From a virus, in the IMG/VR virus record IMGVR_UViG_3300001836_000093, positions 1-27,951 of that record: DNA of 27,951 nt. One strand, written 5' to 3'. Below the pieces are notes generated by a model, which was not told where the DNA came from, ran no database searches, and saw only the letters and a program-made list of their open reading frames with translations. Of this stretch, positions 13,998 to 27,356 are shown in pieces; the first letter of the stretch is position 1; each line of letters starts with the position of its first letter. The position numbers and the translations under genes are program-made.

Positions 13998-16198
13998 TGC
14001 AGGCCCTCAAGGCCGGGCGGCACGGGCGCGGCCTCGGGCCTCGGCCCCATATTGCCGCCGAGCTGTTGCGCCATCAGCGCCATGTCGTCGGGCGGAATCG
14101 CCGCGCCGCCACCTTCCATCATCGGGTCGAACGGCGGCGGGCCACCCATGCCCCCTATGCCCCCTATGCCTTGGGGCGGCATTCCTTGCGGTCCCATCGG
14201 CCCAGGCGGCGGCGGCTGCCCCATCGGCGGGCCAGACTGCGTGACCAACAACTCCGGCTGCAGCGGGATCGGAACCGCCATCCCTGACGTTGCCGCGGCC
14301 ACCACGCCTTCAATCGCCGTTTTCGCAGCTTGCGCGCGCTTCAGTTCAACGCCGGCAATTCCATCTTGCAACGCGACTTCGGCCTCTGGCGGCGGCCCAG
14401 GCGGCGGCGGCTTCAGCAGTTCTTCCGGCTTCTCGATCCGAGCGGCCTCGAGCGCGCGCTTTGTCGCCGCGAGGCCGTCGATGAACGGGTTTCCCTTTTC
14501 AACCTGTTCCATCACGAACTGCGCTTTCGCCATGCGCTGCATCTCCGTGACCGTGTTCGGGTCGGCCACCGGCAGCACGTCGATGTCATCGTGGTAGTCC
14601 TGCGCCACAACCTCGATTGGCTCATCGAGCAGGGCGACATACTTCGCCTGGTTCAGCGTCTCTTTGTTGATGTCGAAGATGAGCCTGTATTCTTCCTTGA
14701 GAGCCCGGAAGATGCGCTTGTAGATCGCGGTAAAGACCTTGAGCCCCTGTTCGATCGCGGCCATGGTTGACGTAGCCGTCTGGTTCGTCGGCGTCTCGCC
14801 CGTCAGGATGTCCTTGACCGAGGCAATGTCCTTGCCTGCGTTGATCAGGAACTCCAGCAACTGCATGAGCACCGGAGCCGGGCCAGGGTGCTCCAGATGC
14901 ACGAGCGCCTTGCGGATATCGTCGCCGGTGCCGGGCACGGTCGGATACTGCCCCGGCTTCATCTTGAGCGTGGACTTGCCGAGCTGCAGGCCCGATGCCG
15001 CGAACCCGCCGCCCGAGTTCTGCAGCGTGCCGGCGTCCATCATCTGATTGATCGTGGTGTCGATCACGTCCGAGATAGCCTCCAGCAGCTTGCCGAAGCC
15101 GATATCGTAGAAACCGCCTTCTGGGTCCGGGATGAACGGTATCTTCACCCAATAGTCACGCCGCGGGATGCGCAGGATTTTGCCGCGCTCCTGATCGACA
15201 ACGATCTTGTCAACGTCGAAGCACGGCTTGATGCGAACGACCTTCTGCGTTTCCTTGTGAACCGTGACAACCCACGGCTCTTTCACGCCGTCGCTGTCCA
15301 CGTCCCAGTAACGATGCTGCTCCAGGAACGTGTGCGGGCTGTCGGAGTCGGTGCTGTCGTCGCTGCCGGTCGTGAGTTCGATTTCGCGGAACTTGCCTTC
15401 CCGAATGCGTTCCTCGATCTCGTGCGGGTAGAGCTTGAACACGTGCGTGATACGGGGCACGCGACTCAGCGACTTGGCGCCCTGGTTCACGACCACATCG
15501 AACGCGCTCGCCAGATCGGACGTGACGCCAGCCTCGCTCGCGTCGTCGGGGTAGACTTTCTTGAAGGCGCACCCGACGATCGGGATTTGATGCAGCGCCG
15601 TGTCCATGTCGGATTCCCAATGGGGAATCTCGTAGAGGAGCTGGTAGCTCATGTGCTGCGAAACGCGATCGGCCATCGCTGCCTTGAGCCCAGCAGGATC
15701 GCGGCCCATCACCTGACACTTGACGATGCGCGGGCCATCGACGATCGCGGGATAGGCGCGAGCCGCGAACTGCAGCGCCGCGGTCGTGAGCATCGGAAAC
15801 TTGACGTTCGACGCGCCGTCCCACGGGTAGGACTTTGATTCGACCTTCTGCCGGGCAATGTCCATGGCCCGGCGTGCGGACTTCTCCCAATCCGCGCGGC
15901 TGTCTTCGTCGATCCTGAACTCGCGCACGACGATCGAGCCGAGTTTGCCCAACTCCTCATCCGTCACCGCGTCGGCGACGTTCGGCATCTTGGCGAGCTT
16001 CATGAGCAGCATCGCCTGCTGCTTGAGCTTGGTGACGCTCTCGGGCTCCGGTGGCGCCAGCGGGAACGGGATCACCTCGCCGTAATGCGGCGCCTCGCCC
16101 ATCTCACCCATCGGCCCGTGCTCGTAGCCGGCGGGCTCTGGCTCATCCATCATCGGTTGGCCGTAGGAGGCCAGGGGAGACATCCCGAAGGGGCTCAT
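13994..16198 (-). CDS. Portal protein, P22-like
   Basis: 734 aa from ATG 16198 (P22 portal is 725 aa). After a Met/Gly/Pro-rich leader of about 60 residues come conserved features of this portal group: SYPWDGASNVKFPMLTTAAL with a following Tyr-Pro, IPIVGCAFKKVYPDDA, a long helical stem region (LEAISDVIDTTINQMMDAGT), then ASVKDILTGETPTNQTATST and MAAIEQGLKVFTAIYKRIF, typical of the P22 portal wing/stem. The last 90 residues are Gly/Pro/Met-rich repeats, probably disordered. Role: dodecameric ring at one capsid vertex through which DNA is packaged and ejected. It overlaps the terminase stop by one base (TGATG). Confidence 0.9.
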   Translation of the reverse strand: MSPFGMSPLASYGQPMMDEPEPAGYEHGPMGEMGEAPHYGEVIPFPLAPPEPESVTKLKQQAMLLMKLAKMPNVADAVTDEELGKLGSIVVREFRIDEDSRADWEKSARRAMDIARQKVESKSYPWDGASNVKFPMLTTAALQFAARAYPAIVDGPRIVKCQVMGRDPAGLKAAMADRVSQHMSYQLLYEIPHWESDMDTALHQIPIVGCAFKKVYPDDASEAGVTSDLASAFDVVVNQGAKSLSRVPRITHVFKLYPHEIEERIREGKFREIELTTGSDDSTDSDSPHTFLEQHRYWDVDSDGVKEPWVVTVHKETQKVVRIKPCFDVDKIVVDQERGKILRIPRRDYWVKIPFIPDPEGGFYDIGFGKLLEAISDVIDTTINQMMDAGTLQNSGGGFAASGLQLGKSTLKMKPGQYPTVPGTGDDIRKALVHLEHPGPAPVLMQLLEFLINAGKDIASVKDILTGETPTNQTATSTMAAIEQGLKVFTAIYKRIFRALKEEYRLIFDINKETLNQAKYVALLDEPIEVVAQDYHDDIDVLPVADPNTVTEMQRMAKAQFVMEQVEKGNPFIDGLAATKRALEAARIEKPEELLKPPPPGPPPEAEVALQDGIAGVELKRAQAAKTAIEGVVAAATSGMAVPIPLQPELLVTQSGPPMGQPPPPGPMGPQGMPPQGIGGIGGMGGPPPFDPMMEGGGAAIPPDDMALMAQQLGGNMGPRPEAAPVPPGLEGLQ

Positions 16199-16848
16199 CA
16201 GTAGCCGGTCGTCCTGTTGCCGATGCTGCGGCGCGCATCTTCCTCATCGTCAAACGACGGCGCCGTGCGCGCGACCCGCATTCCGCTCATGACCAGATAC
16301 CGGCTGGCGTCCATAAGATGGTCGTTCTCCTTGACGATCTTGCCGTTTTCGTCACGGCGATAAATGCGAAACTCGCTCAGCCAGTTGCGGAGCGTTCGGA
16401 ACACCTTCAAGCGGCCGGACACGAGGCGCTGGTAGATCGCGTGGATTCCCGCCTCTACCGCGTTCTCGGCGTCGATCAGATGTAGGCCCAGCTTTTCGTA
16501 TTCCCGCCGCAGCGACTTGCCGTCCACTTGGCTCGCGCCGGCTGAGGCCGGATCAATCGCGCCCATCAGCCAGGGCTCGACCGCGTTGATCGAGGATGCG
16601 TGCACCGCGGGAGCCGCCTGCCCCATGTAGTGCTCGCGGTAGAGGTAGATGCAGTCTGCCGTCCGATCCCATGCGCCCCAAATGCAAGCCGTGCGGTTCC
16701 AGCCAACGTCGAGGCCGTAAGCGCGCGGCCAGAACTCCGGCAGGTCGAACGGCTCAACCGTGATCGCGCCCTCGGGAACCGGATAGATGACGCCAGCGCC
16801 CATGACGGGGATGCCCTTCGTGCGGGCGTCCCGCATGTGGGGTTCCAT
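16198..16848 (-). CDS. Terminase large subunit, C-terminal nuclease half (split gene)
   Basis: From the first ATG in frame (16848) this is 216 aa, but the frame is open back to 16983. The upstream sequence VQATWDDVPHLSAKTKQELL is a conserved piece of the same terminase family, so the ATG is an internal methionine of an ancestral single protein. The nuclease signature is visible: YGLDVGWN (Asp near 47 from this ATG), GAIDPAS (Asp near 99) and NDHLMDASRYL, the acidic residues that bind metal for headful cleavage. No Shine-Dalgarno precedes 16848. A GAGGA lies before an ATT codon at 16929, a rare and doubtful start. The ATPase half is the next gene upstream, out of frame. See the split-terminase finding. 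Confidence 0.8.
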   Translation of the reverse strand: MEPHMRDARTKGIPVMGAGVIYPVPEGAITVEPFDLPEFWPRAYGLDVGWNRTACIWGAWDRTADCIYLYREHYMGQAAPAVHASSINAVEPWLMGAIDPASAGASQVDGKSLRREYEKLGLHLIDAENAVEAGIHAIYQRLVSGRLKVFRTLRNWLSEFRIYRRDENGKIVKENDHLMDASRYLVMSGMRVARTAPSFDDEEDARRSIGNRTTGY

Positions 16849-16988: not shown

Positions 16989-17738
16989 CTATTGCGGCGC
17001 CAAATGCGGGAGGAATTTTAGCGCCACCTTAGACAGTCCAAGCAGCGGTGTGAACGTGTTGATCATCGAGCCGCTGTCTTCTCCGGGCACGGTCGCCGTC
17101 AGGCGCAGCAACATTTCCTCGTAAACGTCGATCGGCGGTTCCTCGTCGAACCAGCCAAGGTCTTTCTTCGTGCCCTGGAACGTCCGGCGGCCCTGGTCGT
17201 AGCTCTTGAACTGCAGGATCGAACGCCCGCCGCTCGTGTGCTGAACCGTGACCGTCTCGACGCCGCCCGGCGTGCCCTGCATCGAACTCGGCTCTCCGAT
17301 GATGCACTCGCCGGGGATCAATCCCGTTCCCAGTTCTCCACTTTTGCCCTCAGCGCCGATCCCGAGCATCGCCTGCTGGATGATGTCTCGTGTCGTCGCC
17401 CGTGTGTCGCCGGCTGCCCATGCCGAGATCGGTCTGTCCCACCTGCGTCCTGGCCACCAATCCGGGTAGAGCCCCGTCAGATGCAGCGCCGTCTCGTATC
17501 CGCCGACGCCCCACGTCTTGCCCACGCGGTTGGCTGCCATCATGCAGCGTTCCATGTGGTCCTTGCCGCCCGCGAAGAACTCCAAGTGCTTCGGGTAGAG
17601 GTGGCGAGCAAGCGGCCCGTCGTCGGGGTACAGGTCGAAGAGCTTACGCCGCCTCTTCCGGCGATCCTTTTCCTCCAGCAGGGACAGCAACTCCCGCTTT
17701 TCCGAGGAGGAAAGCGATGCGAGATTCAAGCTGGTCAT
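16989..17738 (-). CDS. terL: Terminase large subunit, N-terminal ATPase half (split gene)
   Basis: 249 aa. The packaging ATPase signature is complete: Walker A AANRVGKT at residues about 68-75, an adenine-binding/Q-like region before it, AWAAGDTRATTRDI at about 106-119, Walker B LGWFDEEPP at 194-202 and the coupling-motif region INTFTPLLG at 226-234. The family is the P22/T4-type large terminase, which pumps DNA into the prohead. The frame ends at TAG soon after, and the nuclease half continues in another frame. The start at 17738 overlaps the small terminase gene by 95 nt; the N-terminal KRRRKLFDLYPDDGPLARHL is conserved in this family, so the long overlap seems real. Intact TerL proteins here are about 480-500 aa. 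Confidence 0.85.
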   Translation of the reverse strand: MTSLNLASLSSSEKRELLSLLEEKDRRKRRRKLFDLYPDDGPLARHLYPKHLEFFAGGKDHMERCMMAANRVGKTWGVGGYETALHLTGLYPDWWPGRRWDRPISAWAAGDTRATTRDIIQQAMLGIGAEGKSGELGTGLIPGECIIGEPSSMQGTPGGVETVTVQHTSGGRSILQFKSYDQGRRTFQGTKKDLGWFDEEPPIDVYEEMLLRLTATVPGEDSGSMINTFTPLLGLSKVALKFLPHLAPQ

Positions 17739-21336: not shown

Positions 21337-21522
21337 ATGGACACGCAAGCCGTGGAACCCGCACCGATCGCCTACCGTATGCCCGACGCTTCGAAGGCAG
21401 CCGGGATCAGCAAGGCGAAGCTCTATGAAGAGATCGCAGCAGGTCGCCTCAAGGCGATCAAGAAAGCTGGCCGCAGGCTGATCCTGCGGACGGACCTCGA
21501 AGCCTATCTTCGCGCCGCCTGA
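21337..21522 (+). CDS. AlpA/excisionase-like helix-turn-helix protein
   Basis: 61 aa from ATG 21337, with GGAGG 4 nt upstream. The core YRMPDASKAAGISKAKLYEE followed by IAAGRLKAIKKAGRRLIL, then TDLEAYL, is the winged-helix pattern of AlpA, excisionase and MerR-like phage proteins: recognition helix SKAKLYEEIAAG, basic wing KKAGRR, then the Asp-Leu-x-x-Tyr-Leu end. Such proteins bend DNA for excision or switch integrase expression. It is closely similar to the minus-strand gene at 22046-22236 on the other side of the tRNA, and both run toward the tRNA. No integrase gene adjoins it on this strand. Confidence 0.75.
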   Translation: MDTQAVEPAPIAYRMPDASKAAGISKAKLYEEIAAGRLKAIKKAGRRLILRTDLEAYLRAA

Positions 21523-21752: not shown

Positions 21753-21828
21753 TGGTGGGGACGGCAGGGATTGAACCTGCGAACCCCTCGCATGTCAAGC
21801 GAGTGCTCTACCACTGAGCTACGTCCCC
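21753..21828 (-). tRNA. tRNA-Val (anticodon GAC), CCA encoded
   Basis: The minus strand folds as a complete cloverleaf: acceptor GGGGACG/CGTCCCC, D arm GCTC-AGTGGTA-GAGC, anticodon arm CTCGC-TTGACAT-GCGAG with anticodon GAC, variable loop, T arm GCAGG-TTCAATC-CCTGC, discriminator A and encoded CCA (21753-21755). All stems pair perfectly, so it is probably functional. It could be a phage-carried tRNA, or part of an attachment site, as tRNA genes are common integrase targets. No second copy of its 3' end was seen in the window. The flanks (21523-21752 and 21829-22045) hold no convincing gene, only small hairpins (e.g. GGGTCT/AGACCC at 21639-21655 and GGTTCGC/GCGAACC at 21975-22013). Confidence 0.93.
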
Positions 21829-22062: not shown

Positions 22063-22236
22063 CTACAAGATCATCGTGTAAAATGAGCCGGCGACCGCCT
22101 TTTTCACTGATCTCAGTTTGCCATCGGCGATCTCTTGGTACAGCTTCGCCTTGCTGATTCCTGACACCTTCACGGCTTCTTTCATCCGGTATGCGAGGGG
22201 GACGAATTCGATCACGTTCTTTGCGTGCTGGCTCAT
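22063..22236 (-). CDS. AlpA-like helix-turn-helix protein, frameshifted at the wing
   Basis: ATG 22236, 2 nt after the previous stop. The N-terminus reads MSQHAKNVIEFVPLAYRMKE, then VSGISKAKLYQEIADGKLRS and VKKAV, matching the plus-strand AlpA-like protein at 21337. From the run AAAAAGG the frame continues as AGSFYTMIL and stops at 22063. In the -1 frame the same DNA reads GRRLILHDDLVAYLKS and stops at 22046, restoring exactly the family's wing and end. Thus either one base was lost in the homopolymer (mutation or sequencing error) or there is -1 frameshifting. The composite gene would span 22046-22236. The short product would lack the DNA-contacting wing and probably not work. Confidence 0.7.
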   Translation of the reverse strand: MSQHAKNVIEFVPLAYRMKEAVKVSGISKAKLYQEIADGKLRSVKKAVAGSFYTMIL

Positions 22237-22238
22237 GC

Positions 22239-23048
22239 TCAGACCTTCTCGTAACCGTTCACGACAAACCAGTAGTTTGCGGCCTCCCGAAGAATTGCCC
22301 ACATTGTCGTGTGCCGCTCGTGCGCAGCGTCACGCAGTTGCTCATGCATCTTTTTGTCCATCATGACAGAAAAGCTGACGAGCCCGTCGCGGACCTTCGG
22401 CGAAAGCGTCAAACCGACTTCAGGCGCTTCAATGATGGCGTTCTCTTTGACCATTGCAAGGATGGCGGCGGCCTTCTTGGCCGTCTCGACTTGCTCCTTG
22501 TCAGCCTCATTTTTTGCAGCCTCCGCAGACTTTCGGCTGCGTTCCTCGGCTTGCTGCTCCCATTGTCGTTGCCGGTCCTGAGCCTCCTGGCGTTCCCGTA
22601 TCGCGTTCGGGTGCGCCTTTCGGATAATAGCGTCAATCGAGGCGCCGCTAGCCGCTAGTTCTTTTTCAAAATTGCGCTCGGGGACACCGGCTAGCTTGAT
22701 CAACTGTATAATGCGGCTATCCGACAACATCGATGTGGCATCGACTCCTAGCTCATCCCTGACCTTTTGAGCCATGGCCTTCTGTGTCGAACATTTAGAC
22801 ACATCGACTCTAGACACGATTTCGGCCATTCGCCTCCAAGCGCGCAGCCTGATTTCCTCTAACTGACGTACGGCCTCTCGGTCATTCACCTGCTGATAGT
22901 AAGTTGCCATTGCCGCCGCGACGCTCTGCGCCTTCATGCAGTCGTCTATAGATACACAGTCAGCAATGGCCTTCCTCATTTTGTTGTATGTCGACGGCGA
23001 AAACGTGCGGTCCCCATCCGCCACGACAATTTCAGTGCTCTCGCTCAT
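22239..23048 (-). CDS. Phage protein with C-terminal ribbon-helix-helix-like segment, 269 aa
   Basis: ATG 23048. The N-terminal half (SPSTYNKMRKAIADCVSIDD to RAWRRMAEIVSRVD, residues 17-82) resembles a helical domain common in phage proteins that ends in an Ile-Arg-Leu-Arg-Ala-x-Arg-Arg-x-Ala-Glu motif. Residues 100-150 are helical (MLSDSRIIQLIKLAGVPERN). Residues 150-195 form a Glu/Gln/Lys-rich coil. The end (VSFSVMMDKKMHEQLRDAAH at 224-243, then helix MWAILREAANYW) looks like a ribbon-helix-helix unit. I infer a DNA-binding regulator or partition-type protein, but no ParB nuclease motif is seen. Its stop is 2 nt from the AlpA-like start, so they share a transcript. Confidence 0.65.
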   Translation of the reverse strand: MSESTEIVVADGDRTFSPSTYNKMRKAIADCVSIDDCMKAQSVAAAMATYYQQVNDREAVRQLEEIRLRAWRRMAEIVSRVDVSKCSTQKAMAQKVRDELGVDATSMLSDSRIIQLIKLAGVPERNFEKELAASGASIDAIIRKAHPNAIRERQEAQDRQRQWEQQAEERSRKSAEAAKNEADKEQVETAKKAAAILAMVKENAIIEAPEVGLTLSPKVRDGLVSFSVMMDKKMHEQLRDAAHERHTTMWAILREAANYWFVVNGYEKV

Positions 23049-23129
23049 ACCTTCCTCGCCTTTCTGGTCTTGATGTCGTCTGCGATGGTCATAGGCGCTT
23101 CCTCGTCATCATCCCACTTTCCTCCTCAG

Positions 23130-23148
23130 ATCGAGGCTCACGGCCTCA
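23130..23148 (-). repeat. Vestigial second copy of the integrase 3' end (19-bp direct repeat, copy B)
   Basis: Identical to atcgaggctcacggcctca at 23532-23550. In the integrase frame the minus strand here reads Glu-Ala-Val-Ser-Leu-Asp-Leu-Arg-Arg-Lys-Val-Gly-stop (to 23109), a diverged copy of the integrase tail. It begins exactly at the stop of the 121-aa gene. Confidence 0.9.
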
Positions 23149-23511
23149 TCAGCAGTACGCCACCGCAAACCGAAACGTCCTCTTGAAATCGTCGAGTGAT
23201 TGCACCTCGTAAACCAACATGTGCGTGTCGCCAAACCGGATGCAAGCTCCCCTCACCCCTAGAGGTACTTTTACCGGGTAGAAATAAGCGTCGCCGCGCA
23301 CGTCGAACAGCTGATTTGCCAGCGTCGTCATGGCCGGTCTGAGGTACTTCTTTGACAATTCCTCTAGCGGCATGGCCGCGTCGGCGCCTGACAATTCGAC
23401 ATCGACCCAATGCGTCGGCTTTTTCGGTCTTGGCGCGACCTTCCAGACTTCATGGAAGCTCACGTGCGCTAATTTGCACAGAATGTCGTTGGTAATAGTC
23501 GAGTTGGCCAT
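23149..23511 (-). CDS. Cassette gene of unknown function, about 120 aa, between duplicated integrase ends
   Basis: ATG 23511 overlaps the integrase stop as TGATG, with AGGA upstream; GTG 23514 is an alternative. The protein (MANSTITNDILCKLAHVSFH, then VWKVAPRPKKPTHWVDVELS) has a mixed alpha/beta look: a helix around LEELSKKYLRPAMTTLANQL and strands DAYFYPVKVPLG and HMLVYEVQSLDDFKRTF. No known motif, signal or membrane span. It fills almost the whole 402-bp interval between two copies of the integrase 3' end, so it probably arrived as a module with its own integrase tail. Function unknown. Confidence 0.65.
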   Translation of the reverse strand: MANSTITNDILCKLAHVSFHEVWKVAPRPKKPTHWVDVELSGADAAMPLEELSKKYLRPAMTTLANQLFDVRGDAYFYPVKVPLGVRGACIRFGDTHMLVYEVQSLDDFKRTFRFAVAYC

Positions 23512-24551
23512 CACCCTATCCTTCTTCGTAAATCGAGGCTCACGGCCTCAGATGCCGTTCGCAGGTAATCCGGCGCGAACTTGCCGTAGACCTTCCACGT
23601 CGTTCTTGGGCTGCTGTGGCCGAGATAGCGGGCGACCTGCTCGATCGGCGTCCCGGCCATCACCATCCAGCTTGCCGCGGTGCGCCGCAGATCGTGCGGG
23701 GTCGCGTGCTCGATGCCGGCGCGGGAGAGTGTTGCCGCCCATGCGGTCTTGATGCTGGCGACCCGACCTTGCGCGTACTCGATGACGTAGGGTGTAAGAC
23801 TTGCGCCCTTGGCCGATGTCAGGGCGGCAAGGGCCATGTCGTTGATGGGGACGGTGGCGCGGCCCTTAGAGGTCCGGTCGAGCGTCGGGTCGTCGAGATA
23901 GATCAGCCGGCGGTCCAAATCGACGCGGGCCCAGGTCAGGCCAAGGATCGCCTCTTTGCGGCCGGCGGTGGCCAGGGCGAGGATGATGAAAAGGCGAAGG
24001 TGCGGGGACACTGCGGCGTCGATCAGGCTGCGAACCTCGTCTTCGGTCAGCCAGCGCTCGCGGGCGCGGGGCTCGACCGGCAGCCAGACTTGCGGGGCTT
24101 CCGGGATCATCTTGTTTGCCGCGCCCCAGATCAGGGCGGTTCGCAGCCGGCGAAGCTCGGTGAGGATGGTGGCTTCCGCAATCCCGGCGGCCCGGCGGGC
24201 ATCGGCATAGTCCCGGCAGAGTTGCTTCGTGACTTTGCTGGCGGATAGGCCCGCGAACGTTGTTCTGAGCGCCCGCCAGTTGAATTTAAGGATGGGGACG
24301 GACTTGCGCCCCTCAAGCTCGCGATCGGCGATGTAAGCGTCCCAAACGGCTTGCACGGTGGTGGCGGGGCCGGCCTGGACTACGGCTTGGCCGCGAGCGA
24401 AGCGCTCAAGAGCCCGTTTCGCCTCTTCCTGGGTGGAAGCGTGGAGATCGTAGCGCCGTCGTGTTCGGCCTTCTCGCCACGTGACGACCCATCGTCCTTT
24501 GAGCCGACCGAGGCTGTACTTCCCGACGCTGTAGAGCTTGCTTTGAGCCAT
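23511..24551 (-). CDS. int: Tyrosine integrase
   Basis: 346 aa from ATG 24551. It carries an N-terminal arm-binding-like region (residues 1-60, GRWVVTWREGRTRRRYDLHA), a core-binding domain at about 65-165 and a catalytic domain at about 168-330. The catalytic set is complete: Arg198 (ATAGRKEAILGL), Lys229, His286-x-x-Arg289 (HDLRRTAAS), His312 (LGHSSP) and nucleophile Tyr322 (WKVYGKF). It should integrate and excise the phage by strand exchange at att sites. The excisionase-like gene upstream overlaps it by 172 nt. Its last codons include a 19-bp sequence repeated 402 bp downstream; the core of that repeat is an inverted repeat, so the attachment site may lie there (hypothesis). Confidence 0.92.
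   Translation of the reverse strand: MAQSKLYSVGKYSLGRLKGRWVVTWREGRTRRRYDLHASTQEEAKRALERFARGQAVVQAGPATTVQAVWDAYIADRELEGRKSVPILKFNWRALRTTFAGLSASKVTKQLCRDYADARRAAGIAEATILTELRRLRTALIWGAANKMIPEAPQVWLPVEPRARERWLTEDEVRSLIDAAVSPHLRLFIILALATAGRKEAILGLTWARVDLDRRLIYLDDPTLDRTSKGRATVPINDMALAALTSAKGASLTPYVIEYAQGRVASIKTAWAATLSRAGIEHATPHDLRRTAASWMVMAGTPIEQVARYLGHSSPRTTWKVYGKFAPDYLRTASEAVSLDLRRRIG
23532..23550 (-). repeat. 19-bp direct repeat in the integrase 3' end (copy A), inverted-repeat core
   Basis: Contains GAGGC-CGTGA-GCCTC on the coding strand (5-bp arms, 5-nt spacer) within the codons for Glu-Ala-Val-Ser-Leu-Asp. The second copy is at 23130-23148. Confidence 0.9.
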
Positions 24552-25824: not shown

Positions 25825-26463
25825 TCATGCGGCGACCTTGAACATGCTGCGAAGTTCGGCGACCTCTTTCTCGATCTCGGCAAGAAACAGCCTGACGGCC
25901 AACTCCAACGCCGTTATCGTTTCAACGTCGCGGTGCACGCGAATGACCTTGATGCACATCTCGGGGGGGAGTCTGTCATCGTAGCTGATAAAGTCGCACC
26001 ACGCGCGGCCGGTGCAGGCAAGTTGCCACTGGATTTGCTTGGCATAATCGGCTTCGATCGCGCCGCCCTTGAGCATGCGAATGTGCTCCTTGGAATGCGG
26101 ACATTTGATCTCGATCAGACCGTCATCGAGCACGAGGCGATCAGGCGAGCACCCGGCCATTTCGATCGTCGGATGCAGCACGAACCCGACGCGCTCAGGC
26201 TGCACGTCGTTGATGAACCCGTAATAGGCGCGGGCCTTGTCCTCGGTCTCGATCCCGCGCTGCATGGCCGTCGAGACGTATCCGTCGGTTGCAACGAACC
26301 CGGATAGGCGCTCTGCGATCAACTCGCCCTTATATGTCTCGCGCATCGCTGATGGGCCGTTCTTCGTCTGGCGTACTACGTCGGCCACGCGGCTGGAGGT
26401 CACGCGGCCGGCACGGGCTGCATGCCATTCAGGTGAGCCCTGCTCGCAATCGATGACCTTCAC
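25825..26463 (-). CDS. YqaJ/lambda-type exonuclease (viral recombinase)
   Basis: 212 aa from ATG 26463, overlapping the ERF gene by 4 nt. QGSPEWHAARAGRVTSSRVA is the family's N-terminal signature. The metal-binding nuclease core is complete: a glutamate in RGIETEDKAR (near 72), Asp108 in GCSPDRLV, and Glu118 and Lys120 in LIEIKCPHSKE; IQWQLACTGRAWCDFISYDD is the usual Q-motif region. It digests one strand from double-strand ends and hands 3' single strands to the annealing protein encoded next to it, a lambda Red-like pair for recombination and circularisation or concatemer formation of the phage genome. Confidence 0.9.
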   Translation of the reverse strand: MKVIDCEQGSPEWHAARAGRVTSSRVADVVRQTKNGPSAMRETYKGELIAERLSGFVATDGYVSTAMQRGIETEDKARAYYGFINDVQPERVGFVLHPTIEMAGCSPDRLVLDDGLIEIKCPHSKEHIRMLKGGAIEADYAKQIQWQLACTGRAWCDFISYDDRLPPEMCIKVIRVHRDVETITALELAVRLFLAEIEKEVAELRSMFKVAA

Positions 26464-27356
26464 GAGCGCTTCCCCTTCTTTGCGAGGAGCATCGAGCGAG
26501 CCTTCGCGAATTGCGCCGCTGGGATATCCGACAGGCTTTCGAAGTTGCAGAACTCGAGAAACTTGGTGATGTCGGTTTTCGTCTCGGCGATGAGCTTCTG
26601 AAGCTCGGCGACTTGCTCATCGCTGATGAACTCGGCAAGCGCCTGCCCGGCGGCTTTCCCGTCGTCGTCCTCACCCTTGGTCGTGATGTTGAGGATCGCG
26701 GTGCCTGCGTAGCGCTTGCCGTAGCTAAGCGCCGATCCCCATCCCTGCACGTTGTTTTTCGATCCGGTGGAATCGATCGGAGACGAAAAAGGCGTCTCTT
26801 CACGATGGCCGTCACAGTGCGCAAGGATGGCTGTCGTTGTCAGACGCGACTCTGTTTGCGCGATGCGGAACGAGATCCCAAACCCGTACTTGGCCAAGAT
26901 CGGCTTGATAAGCCGGTTCGTATCGTCCCACAACGCATAGGGCGTGCTTTGAATAATCCTCTCGGTGCCCTTTTCCTTGATGATGATTTTTCCGCGCTTG
27001 TCGATCTCAGGCAGCTCCGGCTGCATCGCTGCGAATGCGGCATCATACGCCGCCCTCGCATTCCGCGCCGATGCCCTCTCATACATCGCGAACATTCGTT
27101 CAATGCGCTCGATGTCGATGCCAGGGTCAGCGGCGGCGCGCTCGATCATCGAGATAAGCGCTGCGGCTTCGCTCGCTGCCTGTCCCGGCAGCCGCGCTAC
27201 ATGCCGAGCAACCGCGCCCCCATTGGGAGCGCGTACAGCATTACCGCCAGTATCACCCCCATAATGAAGCACGCCGCTGCCAGCAGGCACAACGCCGCTG
27301 CCGTCGCCGTTCGCTCGATGAATTTGTGGATGAGAGACATTTGCCGCCTGTTCCAT
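26460..27356 (-). CDS. erf: ERF-type single-strand annealing protein
   Basis: 298 aa from ATG 27356 with AAGGA 9 nt upstream. The ERF core spans about 66-230: LISMIERAAADPGIDIERIE, RNARAAYDAAFAAMQPELPE, IIQSTPYALWDDTNRLIKPI, LAKYGFGISFRI and GWGSALSYGKRYAGTAILNI, all typical of the family. ERF proteins anneal complementary single strands and recircularise phage DNA, as in P22. The first 65 residues are Gly-rich, less GC-biased at third codon positions and overlap another small ORF, so the true start may lie further in (e.g. ATG 27149, but without a good Shine-Dalgarno). It precedes the exonuclease gene with a 4-nt overlap. Confidence 0.85.
   Translation of the reverse strand: MEQAANVSHPQIHRANGDGSGVVPAGSGVLHYGGDTGGNAVRAPNGGAVARHVARLPGQAASEAAALISMIERAAADPGIDIERIERMFAMYERASARNARAAYDAAFAAMQPELPEIDKRGKIIIKEKGTERIIQSTPYALWDDTNRLIKPILAKYGFGISFRIAQTESRLTTTAILAHCDGHREETPFSSPIDSTGSKNNVQGWGSALSYGKRYAGTAILNITTKGEDDDGKAAGQALAEFISDEQVAELQKLIAETKTDITKFLEFCNFESLSDIPAAQFAKARSMLLAKKGKRS
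27197..27340 (-). CDS. Putative 47-aa membrane protein nested in the ERF 5' region
   Basis: A different minus frame reads MSLIHKFIERTATAAALCLL, AAACFIMGVILAVMLYAL and PMGARLLGM: a short basic start and one strong membrane helix. Third codon positions are mostly G or C, unlike the overlapping ERF frame, which suggests this is the selected frame here. An AGG lies about 6 nt upstream. No family; a phage micro-membrane protein is plausible. It ends before the conserved ERF core. Confidence 0.45.
   Translation of the reverse strand: MSLIHKFIERTATAAALCLLAAACFIMGVILAVMLYALPMGARLLGM

Follow-up and report, generated by a model that had tools for sequence, protein, structure and literature searches.

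The integrase gene of a freshwater phage, known from an IMG/VR virus record, ends in a duplicated tail: two diverged copies of the last 16 integrase codons and the stop codon (copies A and B) enclose a small ORF. This structure is real and recurs in two other phages (loci L056 and L067); it is new in its details, not in kind. We consider it probably a mosaic joint where the integrase gene ends, adding cargo behind the integrase. No description of integrase tails duplicated around cargo was found among the titles and abstract openings of open-licence papers, a body of literature too limited to prove absence.

The stretch analysed, called the window below, comprises the 27,951 bases of the record. 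Its minus strand carries, in order, a tyrosine integrase gene, a 121-aa ORF, the second integrase tail, two tiny ORFs, a 269-aa gene, a helix-turn-helix (HTH) gene and a tRNA-Val; two recombination genes (Erf and YqaJ) lie upstream of the integrase. The integrase is assigned to the tyrosine-recombinase phage integrases by matches to both the Phage_integrase domain and the PHROG integrase. The features are as follows:

26460..27356, minus strand: Erf-type single-strand annealing recombinase
25825..26463, minus strand: YqaJ/RecE-like exonuclease
23511..24551, minus strand: tyrosine integrase gene, 346 aa (Pfam PF00589, 3e-22; PHROG integrase phrog_1, 1.7e-56)
23511..23561, minus strand: copy A, functional integrase 3′ end, RTASEAVSLDLRRRIG and stop (from the sequence)
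23532..23550, minus strand: core in copy A, the same bases as the copy B core
23149..23514, minus strand: 121-aa cargo ORF
23109..23159, minus strand: copy B, diverged second integrase tail, RTADEAVSLDLRRKVG and stop
23130..23148, minus strand: core in copy B
23121..23126, minus strand: AGGAGG, Shine-Dalgarno-like, in the Arg-Arg codons of copy B, upstream of ATGATG (23107-23112)
23089..23112, minus strand: tiny ORF MMTRKRL and stop, 7 aa, overlapping the copy B stop
23045..23092, minus strand: tiny ORF MTIADDIKTRKARKV and stop, 15 aa, overlapping the MMTRKRL ORF and the next gene (ATGA)
22239..23048, minus strand: 269-aa gene downstream of copy B (PHROG 33995, unknown function, 2e-14)
21753..21828, minus strand: tRNA-Val(gac), candidate attP region

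The two tiny overlapping ORFs (23045-23112) chain copy B to the 269-aa gene through ATGA overlaps. Elsewhere in the window the large terminase is represented by two ORFs, 16198-16848 (Terminase_6C) and 16989-17738 (Terminase_6N); a split is also annotated in phage MW202785 (24453-25184 and 25318-26085), which suggests either a conserved split or an insertion.

The two tails share the consensus RTA(S/D)EAVSLDLRR(R/K)(I/V)G followed by a stop. The initial annotation had reported two integrase-tail copies at a 402-base spacing with 19 identical bases, all of which proved exact on recheck; the duplication it described is real, while the homology begins four codons further 5′ than it had placed it. 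Copies A and B differ at 15 of 51 bases, distributed as 4, 2 and 9 over codon positions 1, 2 and 3, and 14 of 17 residues agree (stop counted), in keeping with the annotated excess of synonymous or conservative differences. When the same substitutions were placed at random, such agreement was reached with p = 2e-4 for identity and in 0 of 50,000 trials for score; with the permutation confined to positions outside the core, p was 9e-4 and 2e-5, respectively. The differences thus protect the integrase frame, from which it follows that copy B is a real integrase tail of another lineage. Copy B evolved as coding sequence and is the tail of a second integrase lineage, as had been claimed.

The 19-base core is identical in both copies, and all 10 flanking sense codons differ, which excludes a recent duplication. 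None of the six core codons (EAVSLD) differs, against 10 of 10 flanking sense codons (Fisher test, 1.2e-4, codon counts entered by hand); scored as a contiguous run, the patch of identity gives 1.4e-3. The core is accordingly a patch of shared descent, or one kept constant, amid strongly diverged sequence. The 19-mer occurs twice in the window; in 100 shuffles the mean number of matches with at most 3 mismatches was 0.04, and no shuffle had two. At the protein level, among 55 integrase loci, the best tail-like score was 66 in the window against a reverse-strand maximum of 34. The core also contains GAGGC-CGTGA-GCCTC, and a hairpin or attC-like site was considered and rejected: folding was no better than in shuffles (z-scores −1.0 and −0.4), and besides the two copies the window has two one-mismatch matches against 2.4 expected.

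The GTG start of the 121-aa ORF overlaps the integrase stop by 4 nt, and an alternative ATG start by 1 nt. The gene does not end exactly where copy B begins, as first annotated; its stop (23149-23151) falls inside copy B, so the last codons of the ORF are integrase-tail DNA read in another frame. Of the six reading frames, only the ORF's own has a codon usage that fits the genes of this phage (0.076 per codon, with negative values in the other five). No relatives of the protein were found in viral contigs except in the same virus, nor any match in phage records, plasmids, Pfam or PADLOC; matches in PHROGs (E 0.063) and PDB (0.29) are at chance level. The single-protein scans require an exact 8-residue match, which relatives of 60-70% identity can escape. 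The cassette DNA was not found in plasmids, and the ORF gave no recombinase match in Pfam or PHROGs. Its AlphaFold model is poor (pLDDT 54.8).

For comparison, 129 distinct integrase loci were collected, 82 of which (window included) had at least 200 bases downstream and were counted; the other 47 were left out of the count. In four of the 82, namely the window, L067, L056 and L200, the DNA of the integrase end recurs strongly (score at least 18; reverse-complement control at most 14). The L200 repeat, 159 bases downstream, looks like integrase arm sites, and no whole tRNA was found there; this locus was therefore set aside. A duplicated tail around cargo is thus present in three loci, the window included. 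Other cargo between duplicated integrase tails, for which the initial annotation had proposed a search, consists of a 72-aa ORF in L067, which starts within the integrase tail and ends 4 nt before the second tail (26 of 28 bases), and a 101-aa ORF in L056, which reads in frame into the second tail (an 18-base exact match), the stop of which overlaps the start of a DUF551 gene. The cargo of these two loci is unrelated to that of the window. The repeated patch occupies the same protein position in all three integrases (EAVSLD or EALEI), and the window integrase is 40-42% identical to those of L056 and L067 among the best 80 of 435 matches.

After the core, the second tail of L056 reads TVAEVK; it is unlike the tail of its own integrase and comparable to TVHEIK in L181 and TIHEIK in L154 (p 8.5e-5; only 1 of 11,766 six-mers of the locus scores as high, in a pool that includes copy B itself). 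This resemblance to integrase tails of other phages indicates a vestige from another integrase lineage, as the model of the initial annotation predicts. At the protein level only the window stands out, since the scores of L067 (34) and L056 (33) are no higher than the best reverse-strand control (34); when all tails were compared with all downstream regions, L056 (47) and L067 (42) fell within the controls, which reach up to 76, the top one apparently being another integrase end. For these two loci we therefore rely on the DNA-repeat survey and the comparison with L154 and L181. A similarity between L056 and L067 ('PETA..KSP') was discarded as a third tail, since by eye it reads as conserved DNA near the tRNA part. 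In a further locus, L239, the sequence some 875 bases beyond the integrase stop matches another integrase end over a long stretch (score 118) and probably belongs to a second, tandem integrase gene.

The proposal that a module of tail plus cargo had been placed before a resident vestige is partly supported, by the two-lineage tails, by the recurrence in L056 and L067 and by the second tail of L056; the part not borne out is the empty site of the window's own lineage. Neither an empty site nor a parental phage of that exact lineage was found among the close relatives and matches listed, whereas the second tail of L056 does have its counterpart in L154 and L181. A degenerate tail pattern retrieved from viral contigs only the same virus and one unrelated match (L107), and a genome scan with the window integrase gave two distant matches, in Paractinoplanes and Actinoplanes (28-29% identity).

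The position of the joint can be followed in six phages with related integrases, the window not among them (L056 is 69-73% identical to four others and, among the best 80 of at least 517 matches, 69% to L181). Over their 15 pairs, the 60 bases preceding the seam have a DNA identity of 0.79 and the 60 bases following it one of 0.28. The seam is the last stretch of integrase-gene homology, and beyond it lies mostly phage-specific sequence, followed in several of the six phages by a conserved stretch and, by eye, a tRNA part. A second seam copy is absent in four of the six.

Near the attachment region, the nearest named phage is MW202785 (portal 57%, integrase 44% identical), a distant relative. 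In MW202785, 28 bases identical to the tRNA-Val beside the L096 integrase start 119 bases beyond the end of the integrase gene. No cargo intervenes, ARAGORN detects no whole tRNA at that place, and similarity to the tRNA-Val of the window itself reaches at most 11 bases, one of them mismatched. The window has a whole tRNA-Val 1.7 kb downstream of its integrase stop, and the genes between integrase and tRNA would have been added. Two inverted HTH/excisionase-like ORFs, 21337-21522 (plus strand) and 22063-22302 (minus strand), flank this complete tRNA-Val (21753-21828); they carry HTH_17 and are complementary over 83 nt at 72%, and the right-hand one (22063-22302) appears frame-shifted near its 3′ end.

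We hypothesize that an integrase end together with a cargo gene from one lineage was placed before the tail of another lineage. Copy A would now close the functional integrase and lead into the 121-aa gene, and copy B would be a vestigial tail immediately upstream of the next start codons. The joint would have been made by recombination, plausibly by the phage's own Erf/YqaJ pair, with the core serving as its seam. Phage Rad52-like recombinases, D3 Erf included, recombine diverged DNA efficiently, and D3 Erf/Exo was roughly equal to lambda Red in efficiency on DNA of 100% and of 78% identity (PMC3945230). Since such recombinases handle diverged DNA and this phage encodes an Erf together with an exonuclease, the core is a plausible place of annealing. 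The right-hand join, between the end of the cargo and copy B, has no visible homology and so calls for an illegitimate step or a lost intermediate; according to the same source, illegitimate events are much the rarer kind in phages (PMC3945230). The window resembles the relaxed-homology mosaicism described there (PMC3945230) in its exchange between diverged sequences and its Erf-type recombinase and exonuclease. It is unlike it in that one joint always falls where the integrase gene ends and leaves behind a second, vestigial gene end, the second join is without homology and the exchange is deduced from sequence.

A weaker suggestion concerns why tail and cargo would move together while the vestige stays, namely that each tail may hold the ribosome-binding site of the following gene. 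Cargo that needs the tail for its translation must bring it along, and the gene behind keeps the old tail, which would account both for the pairing of tail with cargo and for the survival of the vestige. Predicted pairing with the anti-Shine-Dalgarno sequence amounts to −12.1 kcal/mol in copy B, through the AGG AGG arginine codons, for the starts behind it, and in copy A to −9.2 or −5.7 for the ATG or GTG start, respectively, of the 121-aa gene. At 300 control positions inside the integrase the mean was −4.1 and the 5th percentile −9.1; both tails of the window may thus hold a ribosome-binding site for the next gene. Gene P0003 is preceded by its own ribosome-binding site (−8.9), which may make copy B dispensable at present.

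Across the wider set of loci, ORFs starting at a 4-nt overlap with the integrase stop seemed in excess (17 of 82 loci, where no other offset between −30 and +30 exceeded 3), and pairing seemed stronger than inside integrase ends (p 2.8e-4); neither was upheld once the composition of TGA stops was taken into account. The excess arises mainly because TGA stops create ATG or GTG at that offset: among 40 starts at the 4-nt overlap 17 open an ORF of 45 aa or more, as do 61 of 208 starts elsewhere (p 0.07). Upstream of these 17 the pairing is −6.1, not clearly stronger than the −5.6 and −5.0 obtained in two groups for the other 65 integrase stops (p 0.10). This wider test lends no support to a tail-borne ribosome-binding site as the reason for the unit, leaving it a weak suggestion.

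The same anatomy could have arisen if a small circle carrying the core, a new integrase tail and the cargo had inserted at the core by a single crossover, leaving the integrase with an intact end and pushing the old one downstream, which we judge rather unlikely. Prophage e14 at icd of E. coli gives a protein gene a new 3′ end and leaves the old one, a duplicated fragment, beyond the insertion (PMC6379469), and the window similarly has a new functional 3′ end and a displaced, diverged old end. Identical cores between differing flanks fit such an event, as does the homology of the second copy in L056, which starts at the core; against it, the core differs between lineages, and in the window and L067 homology also extends 5′ of the core, unlike a simple insertion. 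The window differs from e14/icd further in that the recipient here is the phage's own integrase, homology is found on both sides of the core, and the insert is a 402-base unit with a single ORF, in which no recombinase gene was recognised. Even less probable is that the repeated core marks arm-type integrase-binding sites. On that reading protein would bind partly within the integrase gene itself, and the attachment core would sit between the two copies or next to them. The last integrase codons do recur shortly downstream in L033 (4039-4253, across a tRNA-Arg), L041, L052 and L200, where they may double as such sites, strongly in L200 (+159) and near control scores in the other three. The differences between copies A and B nevertheless follow codon positions far beyond the core, an ORF instead of a recognisable attachment core lies between them, and the window has only two copies. 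In addition, L123, L154, L181 and L182 lack a second seam copy (at most 3 mismatches) in the 1,471-1,500 bases downstream, and MW202785 has no tail repeat; none of these five is close to the window, being either distant or related to L056/L067.

In L016, L019 and L062, HNH endonuclease genes begin within an ATGA shared with the end of the integrase gene, a possible homing arrangement. They lend some support to co-conversion, whereby an integrase-coupled nuclease gene causes cleavage of integrase genes without it and is then copied, along with the tail, during repair; the 121-aa ORF would then be a derived passenger. This is a very improbable origin here, as neither the 121-aa protein, whose predicted fold is poor, nor the cargo ORFs of L056 and L067 match a nuclease model. 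An assembly chimera or recent slippage duplication is hardly credible: the window, L056 and L067 all come from metagenome assemblies, but the same virus is present, with almost no differences and an identical junction, in contigs of two other samples (sister metagenomes).

The preferred mosaic joint has two further parallels. Morons, or cargo genes of temperate phages, are single extra genes between conserved genes that differ from phage to phage. The window likewise has one extra gene between conserved genes, differing by phage and absent at that place in MW202785; its start overlaps the integrase stop. In an integron, each gene cassette holds one ORF with repeats on either side, beside a tyrosine recombinase gene. 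The unit in the window shares these traits (one ORF, flanking repeats, an adjoining tyrosine recombinase gene), and is unlike integron cassettes in that its core folds no better than shuffles and varies between lineages.

How cargo enters tightly packed phage genomes without breaking neighbouring genes has so far been mostly inferred. The window shows a visible scar of such an entry, and under a mosaic joint the donor integrase end would have come with the cargo while the resident tail stayed. Two distant relatives with different genes in a like slot give a hint of how phages stack genes behind the integrase. A gene end travelling as one unit with the ribosome-binding site of the next gene is a testable idea, although the wider test performed here was unsupportive. 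We speculate, with considerable doubt, that in this phage family modules dock at the integrase 3′ end and can be stacked there, each made of a tail with its ribosome-binding site and one coupled gene. If so, new modules would be gained before older ones and could be lost by recombination between tail copies, and the integrase would remain intact and attP in place while the cargo turns over. The region between the integrase gene and the attachment site can be searched for new cargo genes.
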